Positions 34,005 through 40,710 of a stretch of DNA of 64,000 bases are shown one piece after another. A program made the position numbers and the translations under genes. The notes beneath the pieces were generated by a model. It was not told where the DNA came from and ran no database searches. It was given only the letters and a program-made list of their open reading frames with translations. The stretch comes from Rubrobacter indicoceani (GTDB taxonomy: Bacteria; Actinomycetota; Rubrobacteria; Rubrobacterales; Rubrobacteraceae): NCBI RefSeq assembly GCF_003568865.1, contig NZ_CP031115.1, positions 2,418,001 to 2,482,000 of the forward strand, written 5' to 3'. How positions within the stretch are numbered: the first letter of the stretch is position 1; every line of letters begins with the position of its first letter.

Positions 34005-34652
34005 CTAGCCGGGCCTTTCTCCCGGTTTCCAGTTGTCTCTGAGATGTCCGTTGGTCCGGGACTTCTTCTCTGCGTCCCGCTGGGCTTCGAGCCTCTTCAC
34101 GGCCTGGTTCAACAGTTCCCGGACCATCTCCAGCCGCTCCCGCTCCGATTGCGTTTCGAGCAGCCGCTGACGGTGCTCCGTCCCGAAGTCTATCCTTCCG
34201 GCGATGGCGAACGAGAGGTTTCTGTAGGTCGGCTCTATCTCTATGTCAGCCGGGGACTCCGTAGCGGCCTCCACGACCCGTGTGAGAAGAGCCACGCACT
34301 CTTCGGCGAGCGGCACGTCCTCGGACCTCGGTGCGTCCTCCTCTATGAACTCCACCTCTCCGACAAGATATGCCGCACGGTCGGAGTGGACCTCCCCGAG
34401 GCTGAAACGCCGCACACCTTCGGTAAGGACGAGCAGCCGTCCGTCCTCATAACGTTCCACAAGCTCGGATATCTTTGCGGTGCACCCGACCGTGCGTGTT
34501 CCCTGCTCGTCGGAGAGAACCATACCGAACTCCGACTCGCTCCTGAGGCATTCTTCGACCATCTGTTTGTAGCGTTCCTCGAAGATGTGCAGCGGAAGCG
34601 GCGCACCCGGTACAAGGACCACGTTCAGCGGGAACAGCGGTATCTCTGGCAA
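34005..34652 (-). CDS. LON substrate-binding (LON N-terminal) domain protein
   Basis: 215 residues: PEIPLFPLNVVLVPGAPLPLHIFEERYKQM is the classic start of the domain, then GCTAKISELVERYEDGRLLVLTEG and a helical bundle ending in a basic tail. It lacks the ATPase and protease domains of Lon. Such standalone proteins are probably adaptors; one cannot tell the substrate. Confidence 0.87.
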   Translation of the reverse strand: MPEIPLFPLNVVLVPGAPLPLHIFEERYKQMVEECLRSESEFGMVLSDEQGTRTVGCTAKISELVERYEDGRLLVLTEGVRRFSLGEVHSDRAAYLVGEVEFIEEDAPRSEDVPLAEECVALLTRVVEAATESPADIEIEPTYRNLSFAIAGRIDFGTEHRQRLLETQSERERLEMVRELLNQAVKRLEAQRDAEKKSRTNGHLRDNWKPGERPG

Positions 34653-34742: not shown

Positions 34743-34764
34743 AAAACGGGGGCCGAAGCCCCCG
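34743..34764 (-). terminator. intrinsic terminator of the respiratory operon
   Basis: On the minus strand CGGGGGC-TTCG-GCCCCCG (arms 34758-34764 and 34747-34753, UUCG tetraloop) is followed by TTTT (34743-34746). It lies 40 bp after the last small gene of the operon. Confidence 0.85.
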
Positions 34765-34803: not shown

Positions 34804-34962
34804 CTACTCGTCCTTGCTGATCCAGTAGGTGAAACTCCAGGCCGAGATGTAGATTATCAGGATCAGCACCAGCCCCGCAAAGAACCGGAATACCCCGGTC
34901 GCCGTCGGGTTCCCGGTCGTCCCCTCCTGCAGAAAGGCCAGCACCGTCAAAAACTCGATCAT
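34804..34962 (-). CDS. 52-residue single-TM protein ending the respiratory operon
   Basis: Start ATG overlaps the stop of the CydA-like gene (ATGA), so it is translationally coupled. The peptide begins MIEFLTVLAFLQEGTTG, has one TM helix near residues 24-46 (FRFFAGLVLILIIYISAW) and ends YWISKDE. Small single-TM subunits (CydX/CydS-type) occur in cytochrome bd oxidases. This may be an analogue that stabilises the complex (inference); no sequence similarity to CydX is visible. Confidence 0.75.
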   Translation of the reverse strand: MIEFLTVLAFLQEGTTGNPTATGVFRFFAGLVLILIIYISAWSFTYWISKDE

Positions 34963-36293
34963 CGGACCTCACCCGCCAGTCCTTCTACCGGGCAGCTTTC
35001 GGGTGTCAGCTGCTGGTCGAGCGTGACGCAGTTGTAGATCAGGTAACCCGGCTCGTTATCGACCCGGCGCGCTGTCTCACGGGTGTAGCCCATCGTGATC
35101 ATGGTGAACACCACGGTTACCGCACAGGTTATGAGCAGATACTGGCTCCAGCGGCTCGCGTTGCCCCACCGGAAGCCTCCGGCGGTCGCCTTGAGGTATA
35201 ACCCCAGTACAAAGAACCCGACCAGCATCAACCCGATAAGACCTATGTACTTCCACGGGTACATCTGACCGAGCGGGATGTTGGTGTTCTCGCCGTTGGC
35301 AAAGACCAGACCTATCTGCGGTATCAGGCTTGCGTCGGACGGTATAAGGTTGAGCACCGAGAAAAGCGCCGTAAACGCCAGGCATCCGATGGCCAGCTTC
35401 CTCAAGAAGTTCATGGGCTTCACCGAGAAGCGGAGCTTGTGTACAAAGTACGCCGTCGCCGCGACACCCATGATGCCGAGCCAGATCATGAGCAGGTTGA
35501 AGACCCACGCCTTGTCCCCGAGCATGATGGTGTTGAAGGCCGCCGGGGCCGACTCGCGGATGCCCTTGAGGTACCCGTAGCCAATAACGGGCTGCATCAT
35601 CGTGAAGCCAAAGCCCCACAGAAGCCCGAAGTGTCCCATCCAGTCATAGTATTCGCGGTCGTCCTCCCGCGTCGTGCGGAGGTAGCGCCACGCTGCCCAG
35701 CCGGCGATCAAAAATCCCGCGTACCCGAAGTTGCCGATAAAACGGTGCATGTTCAGCGGGACCATCGTCTGGTTGAGGAAGGTGCTCGCCGTATCCGAGA
35801 CCGCGGACTCAGAGGGCGTGAGCATAAACGACGCGACCGCATCTATCATCGTCATCGCCATAAGGCCCATAAAACCAGCCACAAACCCGAAGACGACGTG
35901 AAGCGACTTCCGGTAGGCCAGCTTGTCCCAGACGTTGTACCAGGCATAGACGATGATGATCTGCCCGAGGAACATAAACGCCTCGACCAGGAAAACCCAG
36001 AAGAAAACGTTCTGCAAATAGGAGAAAAAGACCGGGAACAGCGTTATAAGCGCGATAACGAACGTGATCGCAAGCGCAGCGCCCGAGGCGAACAGAAGGA
36101 CTACGAACCTTGCGAGGTTCCGGGCGAACCGCTCGTAGCGCGGCTGCTTCGTGACCATGCCGAGGTACTCGCTCGTCGCGGCGATAAGAACCGCCCCGAT
36201 GATAAACGCCGCGAACAGGATGTGTCCCTGAACCAGCACGGCAATGGTAACGTTCTTGCCGATAACAGGAACGTCAATGTCGCCTATCGGCAT
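34959..36293 (-). CDS. CydA-like cytochrome bd subunit, member 1 of a pair
   Basis: 444 residues, about 9-10 TM helices. It aligns by eye with CydA: His24 in QGHILFAAF (heme b595 ligand position), Glu104 in LVEAFMFLG near the acidic pair of E. coli CydA, and His183 in LNMHRFIGNFGYAG (heme b558 ligand position). The quinol-binding Q-loop between the H186 and M393 equivalents looks absent or very short. The C-terminal tail has two Cys but no CxxCH. No CydB is nearby. Last large gene of the Rieske/cytochrome b operon, coupled to the 52-residue TM protein. Confidence 0.78.
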   Translation of the reverse strand: MPIGDIDVPVIGKNVTIAVLVQGHILFAAFIIGAVLIAATSEYLGMVTKQPRYERFARNLARFVVLLFASGAALAITFVIALITLFPVFFSYLQNVFFWVFLVEAFMFLGQIIIVYAWYNVWDKLAYRKSLHVVFGFVAGFMGLMAMTMIDAVASFMLTPSESAVSDTASTFLNQTMVPLNMHRFIGNFGYAGFLIAGWAAWRYLRTTREDDREYYDWMGHFGLLWGFGFTMMQPVIGYGYLKGIRESAPAAFNTIMLGDKAWVFNLLMIWLGIMGVAATAYFVHKLRFSVKPMNFLRKLAIGCLAFTALFSVLNLIPSDASLIPQIGLVFANGENTNIPLGQMYPWKYIGLIGLMLVGFFVLGLYLKATAGGFRWGNASRWSQYLLITCAVTVVFTMITMGYTRETARRVDNEPGYLIYNCVTLDQQLTPESCPVEGLAGEVR

Positions 36294-36341
36294 GTCTCAC
36301 CCCCCGATCCCGAATATGCTTTTGTAGTAGAGAACATCCGC

Positions 36342-36866
36342 CTACTGCCCCGGGAAGTTGATGATCCGGCTGACGGCGAGCAGCATGTTCAGAAGAACGA
36401 TAACGATGACCAGAACACCGATGATCGTCATGAAAGGCCGCCTGACCGGGCTGTGGACCGGCGTCCGGTCAAGCCACGGCAGCGCGAAGAGCAGGACCAC
36501 GAAGACCCCCGGTATCACGACCGCGCCAAAGGCGATCAGCGCGTACCCCGGGAAGAACATGAGCATCTGCTCGTAGAAAAAGAAGAACCATTCCGGCCTT
36601 GGCACGTAGTCTACGGTAGCCGGGTCAGCGGGACCGGCCAGCGGAGCGGGTGCGGCGTAGGAGAGGACCGCGCAGGCGATGAGCAGAAGGCATGAGACAA
36701 CCGCATCCCTGACTATCTGACCCGGAAAGAACCCCATGGTTTCGTCCGGACGGTCAAAAACGTTCTCCTCGGTGATAACCTCGGCGTCTTTCGGTTTGGC
36801 CGGTGCGGCCCGCCCCTGCGCTACGTTGTCTCTGGTCTCTGTCTGACCGTACTTTATGTCCGTCAT
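36342..36866 (-). CDS. cytochrome b6f/bc complex subunit IV-like (cytochrome b C-terminal part)
   Basis: 174 residues. A charged N-terminus with ENVFDRPDETMGFFPGQ, then three TM helices, and VPRPEWFFFFYEQMLMFFPG. The PEWF motif is the Qo-site PEWY-type signature of cytochrome b. It provides the C-terminal half of the quinol-oxidising site as in split cytochrome b6f/menaquinol complexes. It is separated from the b6 gene by 132 bp with no other gene visible. Confidence 0.9.
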   Translation of the reverse strand: MTDIKYGQTETRDNVAQGRAAPAKPKDAEVITEENVFDRPDETMGFFPGQIVRDAVVSCLLLIACAVLSYAAPAPLAGPADPATVDYVPRPEWFFFFYEQMLMFFPGYALIAFGAVVIPGVFVVLLFALPWLDRTPVHSPVRRPFMTIIGVLVIVIVLLNMLLAVSRIINFPGQ

Positions 36867-36998
36867 GTTCTGCCTCTCCCGTCCCGGTCCAGCCTGGAGG
36901 TTTACTCTGCACCAATGATGCTACACGTTTCGGGGCACACACCTCGGTAAACGCGCTTACTCACCCGGTGAATCGCCCCGATTCGTGGCTCTCTGTCT

Positions 36999-37832
36999 TT
37001 ACTCCCGCTCCCGCTCTCTTCTCGCCGTCCCGCTATTGTCGCCGCCGGAATCGACCCCGTAGCTCTCCTCGTTCTCTTCGAGCTCGAACTCGGAGTAGTT
37101 CTGCTCCCTCTGACGCTCGTGCATCTTGGAGATACGGTCGGTGTACTCGAACTCGTTGCCGAACTCGCCGTGCTTTCTGAGCAGGAAGAGGTGGATGCCG
37201 ATAAACGGTGCTATCGCGGCCGGAAGCAGCCACACGTGAATTGCGAAGAATCGGGTGAGCGTCGCCGGGCCGACCACGTCGCCGCCGAGCAGGAACTGCA
37301 CGATGTACGGACCGATAAGCGGCGACCAGGAGCCTATCTTGATCCCGACGACCGAAGCCCAGAAACCGTCCTGATCCCAGCGAAGCAGGTACCCCGTGAA
37401 CGCCAGCCCCACCACCAGGAGCAACAGCACGACACCGACGATCCAGTTCATCTCCCTCGGAGCCTTGTACGAACCGCTGAAGAACGTTCTGGCCATATGA
37501 AGCCCGATGACCGCGAGCAGGAAGTTCGCCGACCAGTAGTGGATACCCCGGATAAGAACCCCGAAGTAGGCCCCGTTCATTATGTAGTAGACCGAGTTCC
37601 AGGCGTGGTCCACGGTCGGTACGTAGTAGAAGAGCAGCAGGATGCCCGTCAGGAACTGCAGCGTTATAAGAAAGAGCGTCGCGCTGCCCAGAGTGTAGAG
37701 CCAGGCCCCGCGCTTCGGGACCGGTTCGTAGAGAAAGTGCTCCATGAGCGTAACGGCCCCGGTGCGATCCTCGGTCCAGTCGAGAAAGGACTTCCCCAGT
37801 TCCATCCCCTGAGATCTCAGCCTGCCTATCAT
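36999..37832 (-). CDS. cytochrome b6-like (N-terminal half of cytochrome b)
   Basis: 277 residues, four TM helices. Two pairs of heme-b His residues: IHYWSANFLLAVIGLHM (about 98 and 112) and IHVWLLPAAIAPFIGIH (about 197 and 212). Qo region GYLLRWDQDGFWASVVG is present. No Cys is found in the N-terminal region where b6f and Bacillus QcrB attach heme ci/cn. A long acidic C-terminal tail (YSEFELEENEESYG) is unusual. Together with subunit IV it should oxidise menaquinol. Confidence 0.92.
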   Translation of the reverse strand: MIGRLRSQGMELGKSFLDWTEDRTGAVTLMEHFLYEPVPKRGAWLYTLGSATLFLITLQFLTGILLLFYYVPTVDHAWNSVYYIMNGAYFGVLIRGIHYWSANFLLAVIGLHMARTFFSGSYKAPREMNWIVGVVLLLLVVGLAFTGYLLRWDQDGFWASVVGIKIGSWSPLIGPYIVQFLLGGDVVGPATLTRFFAIHVWLLPAAIAPFIGIHLFLLRKHGEFGNEFEYTDRISKMHERQREQNYSEFELEENEESYGVDSGGDNSGTARRERERE

Positions 37833-37862
37833 AGTTCGCTACCCTCCTGAAACTCTCAAGGT

Positions 37863-38594
37863 CTAGACGACGTACGGTTCTGTCTCGCTGATGCCCGGAA
37901 TGCCTTCTTCGATGTCGAAGCCGTGCTTTACATACAGTCTGCCGTTTTCACGGACCTCATACTGTGTGTACCGATACATCCCCCTCGGCGGCGGGCCGCC
38001 GTACCAGTTGCCGTTTATGTCGTAGATGCCGCCGTGGCACGGGCAGAGGAACTCGCCCTCGCCGTCAACGTTCGTGATCCACCTTACCGGACATCCGAGG
38101 TGAGCGCAGGAGTTGTTGAGCACGTTGATGCCCTCTTCGACCTGCCGGATCTCCTCCGGCGTGAAGCCCTCGCTCTTGTTGTTGAGGAACTCCGGTTTCT
38201 CCGGGGTACCGATGGTGTTGCCCTGATTTCCCTGTCGTCCCTGCCTTTCTATTGGTGCCTTCCACGAAAGCCACACCGCGTTCCTGAGCGTGAACCGCTC
38301 CGTCGAGCGAGGATCCTCCGGGTTTGCCTCCTGCACTCTCTGCTCGCCGTAGATCTGATCTATCGGAAACTCCACGATAAAGACCGACGGCTCCTCTATC
38401 ATCACCTCCGCGACCGGCCCGACCTCCTGCCAGCCCTCATCAACGTTTGTCTGGCCGAGAATGCCGATGTCTATAACGGGCTCCAGCAGAAACGCCGCCG
38501 CCGGAACGGTAATAATCGCACCCATGATGGTCCCCGTTACCCCGAGGGCAAGGAAGTCCGTGCGGGTCATCTTGTCTTTCTGTAGCTCTGCCAC
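37863..38594 (-). CDS. Rieske iron-sulfur protein
   Basis: 243 residues, GTG start. N-terminal TM anchor with KMTRTDFLALGVTGTI, a Tat-like motif with only one Arg. The [2Fe-2S] site is complete: CAHLGC near residue 161 and CPCHGG near 184, with a GGPPPRGMYRY Pro-loop. It passes electrons from quinol at the Qo site. A 60-residue insert (~80-140) before the cluster domain is longer than in most Rieske proteins. Second gene of the respiratory operon. Confidence 0.92.
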   Translation of the reverse strand: MAELQKDKMTRTDFLALGVTGTIMGAIITVPAAAFLLEPVIDIGILGQTNVDEGWQEVGPVAEVMIEEPSVFIVEFPIDQIYGEQRVQEANPEDPRSTERFTLRNAVWLSWKAPIERQGRQGNQGNTIGTPEKPEFLNNKSEGFTPEEIRQVEEGINVLNNSCAHLGCPVRWITNVDGEGEFLCPCHGGIYDINGNWYGGPPPRGMYRYTQYEVRENGRLYVKHGFDIEEGIPGISETEPYVV

Positions 38595-38609
38595 CCTGCG
38601 GTTCCCCTT

Positions 38610-38654
38610 CTAGACTGTTTCCGGGAATTCGTCGTTCTTCTTCAGGTATTGCAT
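38610..38654 (-). CDS. possible 14-residue leader/microprotein between CydA-like and Rieske genes
   Basis: ATG with GAGGTGTGTGGG upstream encodes MQYLKKNDEFPETV and stop. It fills most of the 70-bp gap between the bd-like gene and the Rieske gene. It may be translated to couple the two genes, or be a chance frame. Confidence 0.3.
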   Translation of the reverse strand: MQYLKKNDEFPETV

Positions 38655-38664
38655 CCCACACACC

Positions 38665-40020
38665 TCAGTTGCCGAAGCTGGCGGGCGGAGGCGTACTTTC
38701 TATCGTGTAATCCGGCTGATTATATACCGCAAACGGAACCCTAGAGTTCGACTTCATGAAGCCCATGTTAAGCGCGACAACCGCTGCGAACACTCCAAGC
38801 GAGATCAGCACCACCCTGTACATCGTACCCGGACTCCCGTACGAGAAGCGTAAACGACCTCTCATGTACGTGATGAAAGCCCCGAGCGTGGCGATGATCA
38901 TGATCAAAAGCGCGATGTAGCGGAAGTAGTAGGTCGGGAAGTCGGCCAGCGGAGATATCGAGTACAGCCCCGCCACCGTGGCGACCAGCCCGAAGAACCG
39001 GATCGGAACCCGGCTGGCCTGGTCCGGATGACGCTCGGCCCCGAGGTACATCGCCACCGCCGAAAGCACGAACAGGATAACGACCAGAAGCAGATTCGTG
39101 TAGAGCATGCCCGAAGACGCCCCCGAGGTCAGCCGCTCGTAGGAGCCGCCCGCCGCCCCCGAAACCGGCTCGTTCGGTACGGAGAGCTTCATCGAGTAGA
39201 CGATAAAGTAGCCGATTATCGGCTGCAGCATCAGGAACCCAACCCCCCACGTCAGGCCCACCGAACTCGCCCAGTCGTAGAAGGACTTGTCCGCCTCGCT
39301 CTTGGCCCGGACGTACTTGAAGGAGGCCCATGCGCCGAGAGCGAACGCCGGCCACGAAAGGTTGGCGAACGTCCGGTGTAGCACCATCTCAACGAACATG
39401 GGGTTGAAGACCTGCCCGAGGGAGGCTCCGAAGCTCTCGACACTCCCGGCTGTTATCGGTTGCCCCTGCGCTCCGCCGCCGCTCACCATGTACGTGTCTA
39501 TGCCGGTCATGATAACGACCCAGATCCAGATAAAGACCCCCATCGTCAGCCCCATGGCGATGTGGCGGTTTTTCTTGAGGACGGCGTAGCGGTCCCACTT
39601 GTAGTAGTAGGTGTACATCCCCCACAGGGCGAGCACCATCGAGAGCATCGCCGCTGCTATAAGGTAGAAGAAGTTGGTGAAGATAGAGGCCGTAACGCTC
39701 GGGTAGAGACCGACGAGCAAAACAAGGAACAGCACCGCGAACGTCGCCCCGGTCGAGAACGTCAGCACGTTGAAGCGCACCATCGAGTGCGCGAGGCGGT
39801 CCATTCGGGGGCTGCCCGTACGCGCTCCCCACGCCTGAAGCACCGGTGCCGCGATGGCGAACCCGACAAAGATCTGAGCAAAAAACATGTGGATCAACAT
39901 AGACCCGCCCGTTACCGTCCGTGCCCCCCCGAACTCCGAGAGCGCATTCGACAGGTCTACCTGAGCGACGACGAACTGAAGCAAAACCAGAGGAAGCTTC
40001 AGGATTATCTCTGCGGCCAC
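38665..40020 (-). CDS. CydA'-like cytochrome bd subunit, member 2 of a pair
   Basis: 451 residues, about 9-10 TM helices. By-eye alignment with CydA keeps His44 (MLIHMFFAQIFVG), KWDRY after helix 4, His215 (EMVLHRTFANLSW) and a closing SRVPFAVY that mimics the CydA GRQPW segment. Both acidic residues of the E99/E107 pair are missing (AAAMLSMVLA), and the Q-loop looks absent. First gene of the operon that continues with Rieske, b6, subunit IV and the second CydA-like gene. It resembles the degenerate CydA' partner of CydAA'-type oxidases. Confidence 0.75.
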   Translation of the reverse strand: MAAEIILKLPLVLLQFVVAQVDLSNALSEFGGARTVTGGSMLIHMFFAQIFVGFAIAAPVLQAWGARTGSPRMDRLAHSMVRFNVLTFSTGATFAVLFLVLLVGLYPSVTASIFTNFFYLIAAAMLSMVLALWGMYTYYYKWDRYAVLKKNRHIAMGLTMGVFIWIWVVIMTGIDTYMVSGGGAQGQPITAGSVESFGASLGQVFNPMFVEMVLHRTFANLSWPAFALGAWASFKYVRAKSEADKSFYDWASSVGLTWGVGFLMLQPIIGYFIVYSMKLSVPNEPVSGAAGGSYERLTSGASSGMLYTNLLLVVILFVLSAVAMYLGAERHPDQASRVPIRFFGLVATVAGLYSISPLADFPTYYFRYIALLIMIIATLGAFITYMRGRLRFSYGSPGTMYRVVLISLGVFAAVVALNMGFMKSNSRVPFAVYNQPDYTIESTPPPASFGN

Positions 40021-40059: not shown

Positions 40060-40710
40060 TCATCCTCTGCCCCGAGCCGGTGTTTCGGCGCCACCAGTCT
40101 GGTCGTTCGACCTTGCCCGGTACAGCGTAGCCTGATGCACCGCCCTCGGCTCGAGCCGCTTGTTCACCAGGTAGTACGTCGCCCCGGTTCTCTGGAGTAT
40201 CTCCCGAAGGGGCCGCAGAATGGTGCGGTCGGTGGTGTTGGCGAAGACCAGAACCCGCCCGACCTCGAACTCCTCGTTCCAGGAAGAAGCCTCTTCCCTC
40301 GGCGCGCCCATCTCGGTCATTATGGGTTCCACCCCGACCCGCGAGAAAACCCCCGCGAACAGGATGGCCGCAAGAGAGGCGAAGACCATGAAGGTCGGGA
40401 TGCCGATGGCCGGGGTGGTGATGATAAAGAAGAGCCCGATCACTATAAAGGCGATGGCAAAACCTATAACCACCCCGAGACCGCGACTGTCGTCCGGCAC
40501 GACTATGTAGCGCGTGCCGTCCGGGAAAGGTTCCGGTCCGTCCTGCTCCTTGCGCTTGAGGATTACGGTCAGGTCGTCGCGACCCACTCCGAGACCCTGG
40601 ATCTCGCGCACGGCGCGGTTGAGTTCCGCCCCGTCGTCTATGACCCCCACTACGGTGTAGCCGGAACCCTGCTGCCTCCGCTGGTTCGGCGCACCCTTCT
40701 CCTGCGTCAA
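40060..40710 (-). CDS. membrane protein with N-terminal general-stress/DUF3341-like domain
   Basis: 216 residues; TTG start behind GGAGGTAGTCA. The N-terminal soluble domain YTVVGVIDDGAELNRAVREIQGLG resembles general-stress GSP17M-like domains and, in topology, the ActD subunit of alternative complex III. Two TM helices (~80-130) follow, then a second soluble domain and a basic tail. It is directly upstream of the respiratory operon, 40 bp from the CydA'-like start, so it may belong to it. Confidence 0.6.
   Translation of the reverse strand: MTQEKGAPNQRRQQGSGYTVVGVIDDGAELNRAVREIQGLGVGRDDLTVILKRKEQDGPEPFPDGTRYIVVPDDSRGLGVVIGFAIAFIVIGLFFIITTPAIGIPTFMVFASLAAILFAGVFSRVGVEPIMTEMGAPREEASSWNEEFEVGRVLVFANTTDRTILRPLREILQRTGATYYLVNKRLEPRAVHQATLYRARSNDQTGGAETPARGRG

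Follow-up and report, generated by a model that had tools for sequence, protein, structure and literature searches.

A 64,000-nucleotide stretch of the Rubrobacter indicoceani genome (contig NZ_CP031115.1, positions 2,418,001 to 2,482,000; hereafter the window) carries a minus-strand operon in which the genes for a Rieske protein, a cytochrome b6-type subunit and a subunit IV are enclosed by two genes encoding CydA-like membrane proteins, designated A and A'. The genome to which the window belongs (G000) amounts to 3.08 Mb in three contigs and is 99.99% complete. A first-pass annotation, made from the letters of the window, had recorded six open reading frames (ORFs) here, from the gene for A' to that for a peptide of 52 amino acids, and all six were found in the ORF list on the minus strand at the coordinates it gave. 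Their assignment to a single operon was upheld, while the operon as it was described proved incomplete: a seventh gene at the upstream end, encoding a protein of 216 amino acids (40060-40710), had been overlooked. The features of the operon are as follows, in order of position:

34743-34764, minus strand: intrinsic terminator with a UUCG loop and a T4 tail, read directly from the sequence
34804-34962, minus strand: 52-amino-acid peptide with a single transmembrane segment and the C-terminus FTYWISKDE, overlapping the stop of A; no family assigned
34959-36293, minus strand: A, CydA-like membrane protein of 444 amino acids and candidate O2-reducing subunit (PF01654, 75.4 bits)
36342-36866, minus strand: subunit IV (C-terminal half of cytochrome b), 174 amino acids, with the Qo motif PEWF (PF00032)
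36999-37832, minus strand: cytochrome b6-type subunit, 277 amino acids (PF00033/PF13631)
37863-38594, minus strand: Rieske [2Fe-2S] protein, 243 amino acids, with an N-terminal transmembrane anchor (PF00355)
38665-40020, minus strand: A', CydA'-like membrane protein of 451 amino acids and paralog within the bd superfamily (PF01654, 27.9 bits)
40060-40710, minus strand: membrane protein of 216 amino acids, encoded at the head of the operon and separated from A' downstream by 39 bp

The UUCG terminator that had been proposed is present as the hairpin CGGGGGC-TTCG-GCCCCCG-TTTT (34764-34743 on the minus strand); it is missing from the list of the consensus scanner and was seen by direct reading. 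The 216-amino-acid protein combines a soluble domain with a hydrophobic hairpin and has no family match in Pfam or PHROGs, and the 52-amino-acid peptide is CydX-like, as a small subunit, by its size and position only.

The PF01654 scores of A and A' both exceed the curated Pfam cut-off of 26.2 bits. Comparison with canonical CydA using hhalign gave an alignment over residues 18-250 of A (probability 98%) and over residues 33-278 of A' (probability 87%), and the two proteins were found to be homologous to each other over nearly their entire length (E=1.5e-38). When the predicted models of A and A' were searched with Foldseek, the best matches were bd oxidase subunit I structures. In the profile alignment His24, Glu104 and His183 of A correspond to His19, Glu99 and His186 of E. 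coli CydA and are invariant in 13 of 13 sequences, while in A' His44 and His215 correspond to His19 and His186 and an alanine occupies the Glu99 position. It had been claimed that both proteins keep two histidine ligand positions, and that one of them keeps a single residue of the E. coli Glu99/Glu107 pair and the other none; both claims agree with this alignment, A holding the Glu99 equivalent (E104) with a glutamine at the Glu107 position (Q, E or V among the 13 sequences), and A' holding neither. The active-site pair of His19 and Glu99 is present in A and not in A', which has His44 only.

Among 28 canonical CydA sequences His19, Glu99, Glu107, His186, Glu257, Met393, Glu445 and Arg448 are all invariant. 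No homology of A or A' to canonical CydA was detected with hhalign past residue ~250, and the Q-loop is therefore gone; an alignable Q-loop and the GRQPW motif are absent from all sampled A and A', including the counterpart of the invariant Glu257. Nor does the operon contain a gene for CydB, so that neither a canonical Q-loop nor a CydB came to light on alignment. In the model of A, two helices are predicted in the Q-loop stretch, ahead of a helix resembling canonical TM7, and the tail of the protein contains two invariant cysteines. Phylogenetic analysis placed A and A' outside ordinary CydA, with support of 100/100 for their separation from all 28 of the sampled canonical sequences and of 99/94 for the joining of A with A'; the latter is to be taken as the weaker result because long branches were flagged in the tree. 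The sole reference fused to cytochrome c, a distant sequence from an Agrobacterium plasmid, has a branch too long to place. A' is likely to be the partner of A, replacing CydB.

The Rieske, cytochrome b6 and subunit IV assignments of the first-pass annotation were corroborated by Pfam domains scoring over cut-off. The motifs CAHLGC and CPCHGG of the Rieske protein are unchanged across 23 orthologs, and among solved structures the Rieske proteins 3fou and 1nyk are the nearest to it. High-potential Rieske proteins have a serine where that of the Rubrobacter operon has a glycine, which suggests a lower potential, compatible with menaquinol. Four invariant histidines with b6-type spacing (H98, H112, H199 and H214) were identified in the b6 subunit, the best PDB matches of which are cytochrome b6 of the b6f complex; as had been reported, it lacks a cysteine for heme ci (there is none in the whole protein), and a covalent heme ci is consequently absent. 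The PEWF motif of subunit IV (P91-E92-W93-F94) is invariant. The b6 gene of the operon supplies the only PF13631 cytochrome b of the window's genome, and in the family nearly all matches to this domain, which is present in 21 of 22 good genomes, belong to the operon or its copies.

A search was made for electron acceptors on which such a complex would ordinarily depend. The 64-kb window is free of CxxCH sites in all frames, in keeping with the earlier statement that no cytochrome c of this type lies near the operon. Across the whole genome the DNA pattern for CxxCH occurs at 58 sites (compared with 135 for the reversed control); all were translated and, with ORFs of at least 70 amino acids judged, no c-type cytochrome was recognised at any of them, the sites falling in noncoding frames or in proteins judged from their sequence to be enzymes or of zinc type. 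The heme-copper oxidase domain PF00115 is likewise absent from the window's genome, as it is from 37 of the 39 Rubrobacteraceae genomes searched. The matches in the other two were rejected as heme-copper oxidases, since the NorB N-terminal domain PF22085 in both identifies them as nitric oxide reductases; these quinol-type enzymes lie at L057 (65-2353), where the gene adjoins one for canonical CydA, and at L058 (4285-6624). ResB was not found in any of the 39 genomes (0/39, with five controls positive), the cytochrome c domain PF13442 was found in one (G011), and PF00127 copper proteins were not found in G000, G008, G010 or G019. A cytochrome c or heme-copper oxidase that might act with the complex from elsewhere was thus not recognised in the genome, and the family yielded two nitric oxide reductases and one diheme c-type ORF.

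The order 216-amino-acid protein, A', Rieske, b6, subunit IV, A and 52-amino-acid peptide was observed at every intact locus among the approximately 24 examined in Rubrobacteraceae. Some of the subunit IV and 216-amino-acid genes of relatives were detected by tblastn and not by ORF picking. Most intergenic gaps in these loci measure tens of bases, and in many of the loci A overlaps the small gene. The 216-amino-acid gene occupies the same position in nearly all orthologous loci and also stands beside the duplicated operons at L053 and L055, while the 52-amino-acid gene follows A in complete operons, including that of R. taiwanensis and the duplicated copies. Complete second copies of the operon, 52-amino-acid gene included, were identified in relatives at L051, L053 and L055, and the A and A' paralogs of the duplicated operons give concordant branches in the tree. 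The duplicate in G011 (L055, 10-8693) adjoins genes for molybdopterin-binding, 4Fe-4S (Fer4) and NrfD proteins, which may point to a connection with a further quinone-coupled enzyme. Directly downstream of the operon in the window lies a gene for a Lon N-terminal-domain protein (34005-34652, minus strand), which stays nearby in most relatives.

In 396 Actinobacteria genomes, A was confined to Rubrobacteraceae, and no relatives of A or A' were found in viral contigs. A plasmid search with A' gave no match, and one with A returned a distant cytochrome-c-fused CydA from Agrobacterium, one canonical CydA and nothing else. In the Agrobacterium gene, which lies on the conjugative plasmid pLN1-183666 (L089, 5947-8510), the CydA-like core is joined to a cytochrome c domain, and the next gene is annotated as cytochrome C; the oxidase encoded there is OR-C-like.

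In two relatives, G019 (one contig, 100% complete) and G010 (99%), both A and A' are present while canonical CydA and any heme-copper oxidase (PF00115) are absent, and A/A' is therefore the only oxidase candidate found in these genomes. It has been reported from soil crusts that Rubrobacteria are without cytochrome c oxidase and use a 'cytochrome bd ubiquinol oxidase' (PMC7901476); in strains lacking canonical CydA, only A/A' could be meant by this name.

The operon probably encodes a cytochrome-c-free menaquinol:oxygen oxidoreductase, in which a Rieske/cytochrome b complex is combined with a heme pair of the CydA/CydA' type. Menaquinol would be oxidised at the Qo site of b6 and subunit IV, with one electron recycled via the b hemes (Q-cycle) and the other passed to the Rieske cluster, whose mobile head would then reduce a heme on the outer face, bound in A and/or A' at the position equivalent to His186, this heme serving in place of cytochrome c1 or f as the Rieske acceptor. 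O2 would be reduced at the His24/Glu104 site of A, which the electron would reach from this heme. A' would stand in the structural place of CydB, and the 52-amino-acid peptide may act as a small stabilising subunit. Direct transfer from the Rieske protein to the bd-like pair is probable because there seems to be neither a cytochrome c nor a heme-copper oxidase in Rubrobacter and its relatives. We infer one physical complex with direct electron transfer, O2 reduction by A and no unrecognised soluble carrier in between. Cytochrome bd alone has a charge yield of 1 per electron; the Q-cycle would contribute 1 and the bd-type reaction 1, giving about 2 charges per electron. The first-pass annotation had likewise proposed that electrons pass from the Rieske/cytochrome b part to the bd-like pair with no c-type carrier, and the present results support it: a canonical Q-loop or a CydB in the operon, an external cytochrome c or heme-copper oxidase partner, and a position of both proteins inside ordinary CydA, which it had named as evidence to the contrary, were each looked for and none was found. 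The broader proposal, that the whole family respires O2 by a c-free supercomplex of complex III and bd, in which the Rieske protein directly reduces a bd-type oxidase that is the only terminal oxidase of some species, is favoured by a little.

A number of observations weigh against this interpretation. The counterparts of Met393 and Glu445 appear to have been lost (Ile350 and Gly402 in A, placed by eye and not by alignment), and the heme content and O2 site are uncertain because of this apparent loss. The AlphaFold monomers of A and A' are of moderate confidence (predicted local distance difference test score ~66). Solo A genes, accompanied by neither A' nor Rieske, occur at L052, L054, L056 and L028 (R. 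taiwanensis and others); the L028 gene is interrupted, by a stop codon or a shift of frame, and has a weak match to the 52-amino-acid gene behind it, which was not found behind the other three. PF00127 proteins are present in 12 of the 39 relatives, and a draft contig of G011 (C94; L145) carries, next to a gene resembling that for transketolase, the diheme c-type cytochrome ORF that gave the PF13442 match, the question of contamination not being settled by contig G+C. The window's own genome holds a separate canonical CydAB, followed by CydDC-type ABC genes, and the A/A' system need not therefore be its sole oxidase. A search for alternative oxidase, in which the control was silent, was not used as proof.

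The solo A genes, located away from Rieske/b, would suit a reading in which A/A' oxidises quinol by itself at a divergent site, as an enzyme of the archaeal CydAA' kind, while Rieske/b is a quinol oxidase in its own right, linked to A/A' by nothing more than a common transcript; archaeal CydAA' without CydB is indeed said to have been described as a quinol oxidase by Murali et al. in 2021. This is considered unlikely, as the Q-loop and GRQPW are missing from every sampled A and A' (homology ending before the Q-loop), the operon has been co-duplicated as a whole, and the Rieske protein would be left without a known acceptor in a genome where no cytochrome c, no heme-copper oxidase and no PF00127 protein was recognised. 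A soluble or lipoprotein carrier that escaped recognition, such as a cupredoxin outside PF00127, could instead connect Rieske/b with A/A', in line with the PF00127 proteins of the 12 relatives and with the view that OR-N reductases elsewhere are fed by cytochrome c (PMC10839748). Such a carrier is judged slightly more improbable again, given that the operon has no carrier gene, that G000, G008, G010 and G019 are all without PF00127, PF13442 and ResB, and that G000 is without any recognised c-type cytochrome. The least probable of the alternatives is that A/A' is a mere electron relay replacing cytochrome c1 or f, with a final acceptor other than O2. The altered Glu107 and the apparently altered Met393 and Glu445 positions would fit a relay, as would the molybdoprotein, Fer4 and NrfD genes beside the L055 duplicate; it is opposed by the invariance of the His19 and Glu99 equivalents in A, by the failure to find another oxidase in G019 and G010, and by the absence of any sign of anaerobic respiration in soil-crust metagenome-assembled genomes, Rubrobacteria included (PMC7901476).

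The usual view is that a Rieske/cytochrome b complex needs an acceptor of c type or a similar one, and that electrons reach bd-type oxidases from quinol or, in the OR families, from cytochrome c. If correct, direct feeding of a bd-type heme by a Rieske protein would constitute a new aerobic respiratory wiring, in which a bd-type oxidase is coupled to a Q-cycle, and it would supply a testable donor for CydA-like proteins without a quinol site, which are poorly characterised. It would also explain energy conservation in Rubrobacteraceae, previously noted to be without cytochrome c oxidase (PMC7901476). CydAA'-type reductases without a quinol site are already known, and it is their pairing with a c-less Rieske/b complex that looks new. 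No paper joining the two was found in a literature search; Murali et al. 2021 and Dibrova et al. 2013 lay outside that search, and an earlier mention is possible.

Nitrospira and Nitrospinota possess CydAA'-type OR-N proteins which have no quinol site and are thought to be fed by cytochrome c (PMC12342949, PMC3578206, PMC10839748). A and A' resemble the OR-N and OR-C proteins in forming a pair of bd-superfamily paralogs with no CydB, no quinol site and extra helices in place of the Q-loop (PMC3578206, PMC10839748, PMC12342949), a likeness that rests on the bd core and the lost quinol site and not on clade position. The OR-N and OR-C genes, however, sit among c-type cytochrome genes or beside alternative complex III, whereas the partner in Rubrobacter is Rieske/b6/IV, in a genome where no c-type cytochrome was recognised. 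In Nitrospira moscoviensis bd-like_1 and bd-like_2 are found near complex III (CIII_1), and a III-IV supercomplex has been suggested (PMC6606698); bd-like genes thus lie beside Rieske/cytochrome b in both organisms, but the N. moscoviensis region holds several cytochrome c genes, while the Rubrobacter operon is compact and c-free. The archaeal CydAA' system also has two CydA paralogs and no CydB in the operon, and differs in that A/A' has no quinol-binding site. With canonical CydAB there is in common a six-helix core and, in A, the His19/Glu99/His186 equivalents; the operon departs from it in lacking CydB, the Q-loop and GRQPW, the CydB of this genome lying with its separate canonical CydA. 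The Rieske ligands, the split b6 and subunit IV, the bis-histidine b hemes (four histidines) and PEWF are shared with cytochrome b6f/bc1, unlike which the Rubrobacter operon has no c-type subunit (c1, f or QcrC) and no cysteine for heme ci. The actinobacterial bcc-aa3 supercomplex uses a diheme QcrC and an aa3 heme-copper oxidase, neither of which occurs in the window's Rubrobacter genome, yet the outcome would be alike, with electrons passing from quinol to O2 without free cytochrome c.

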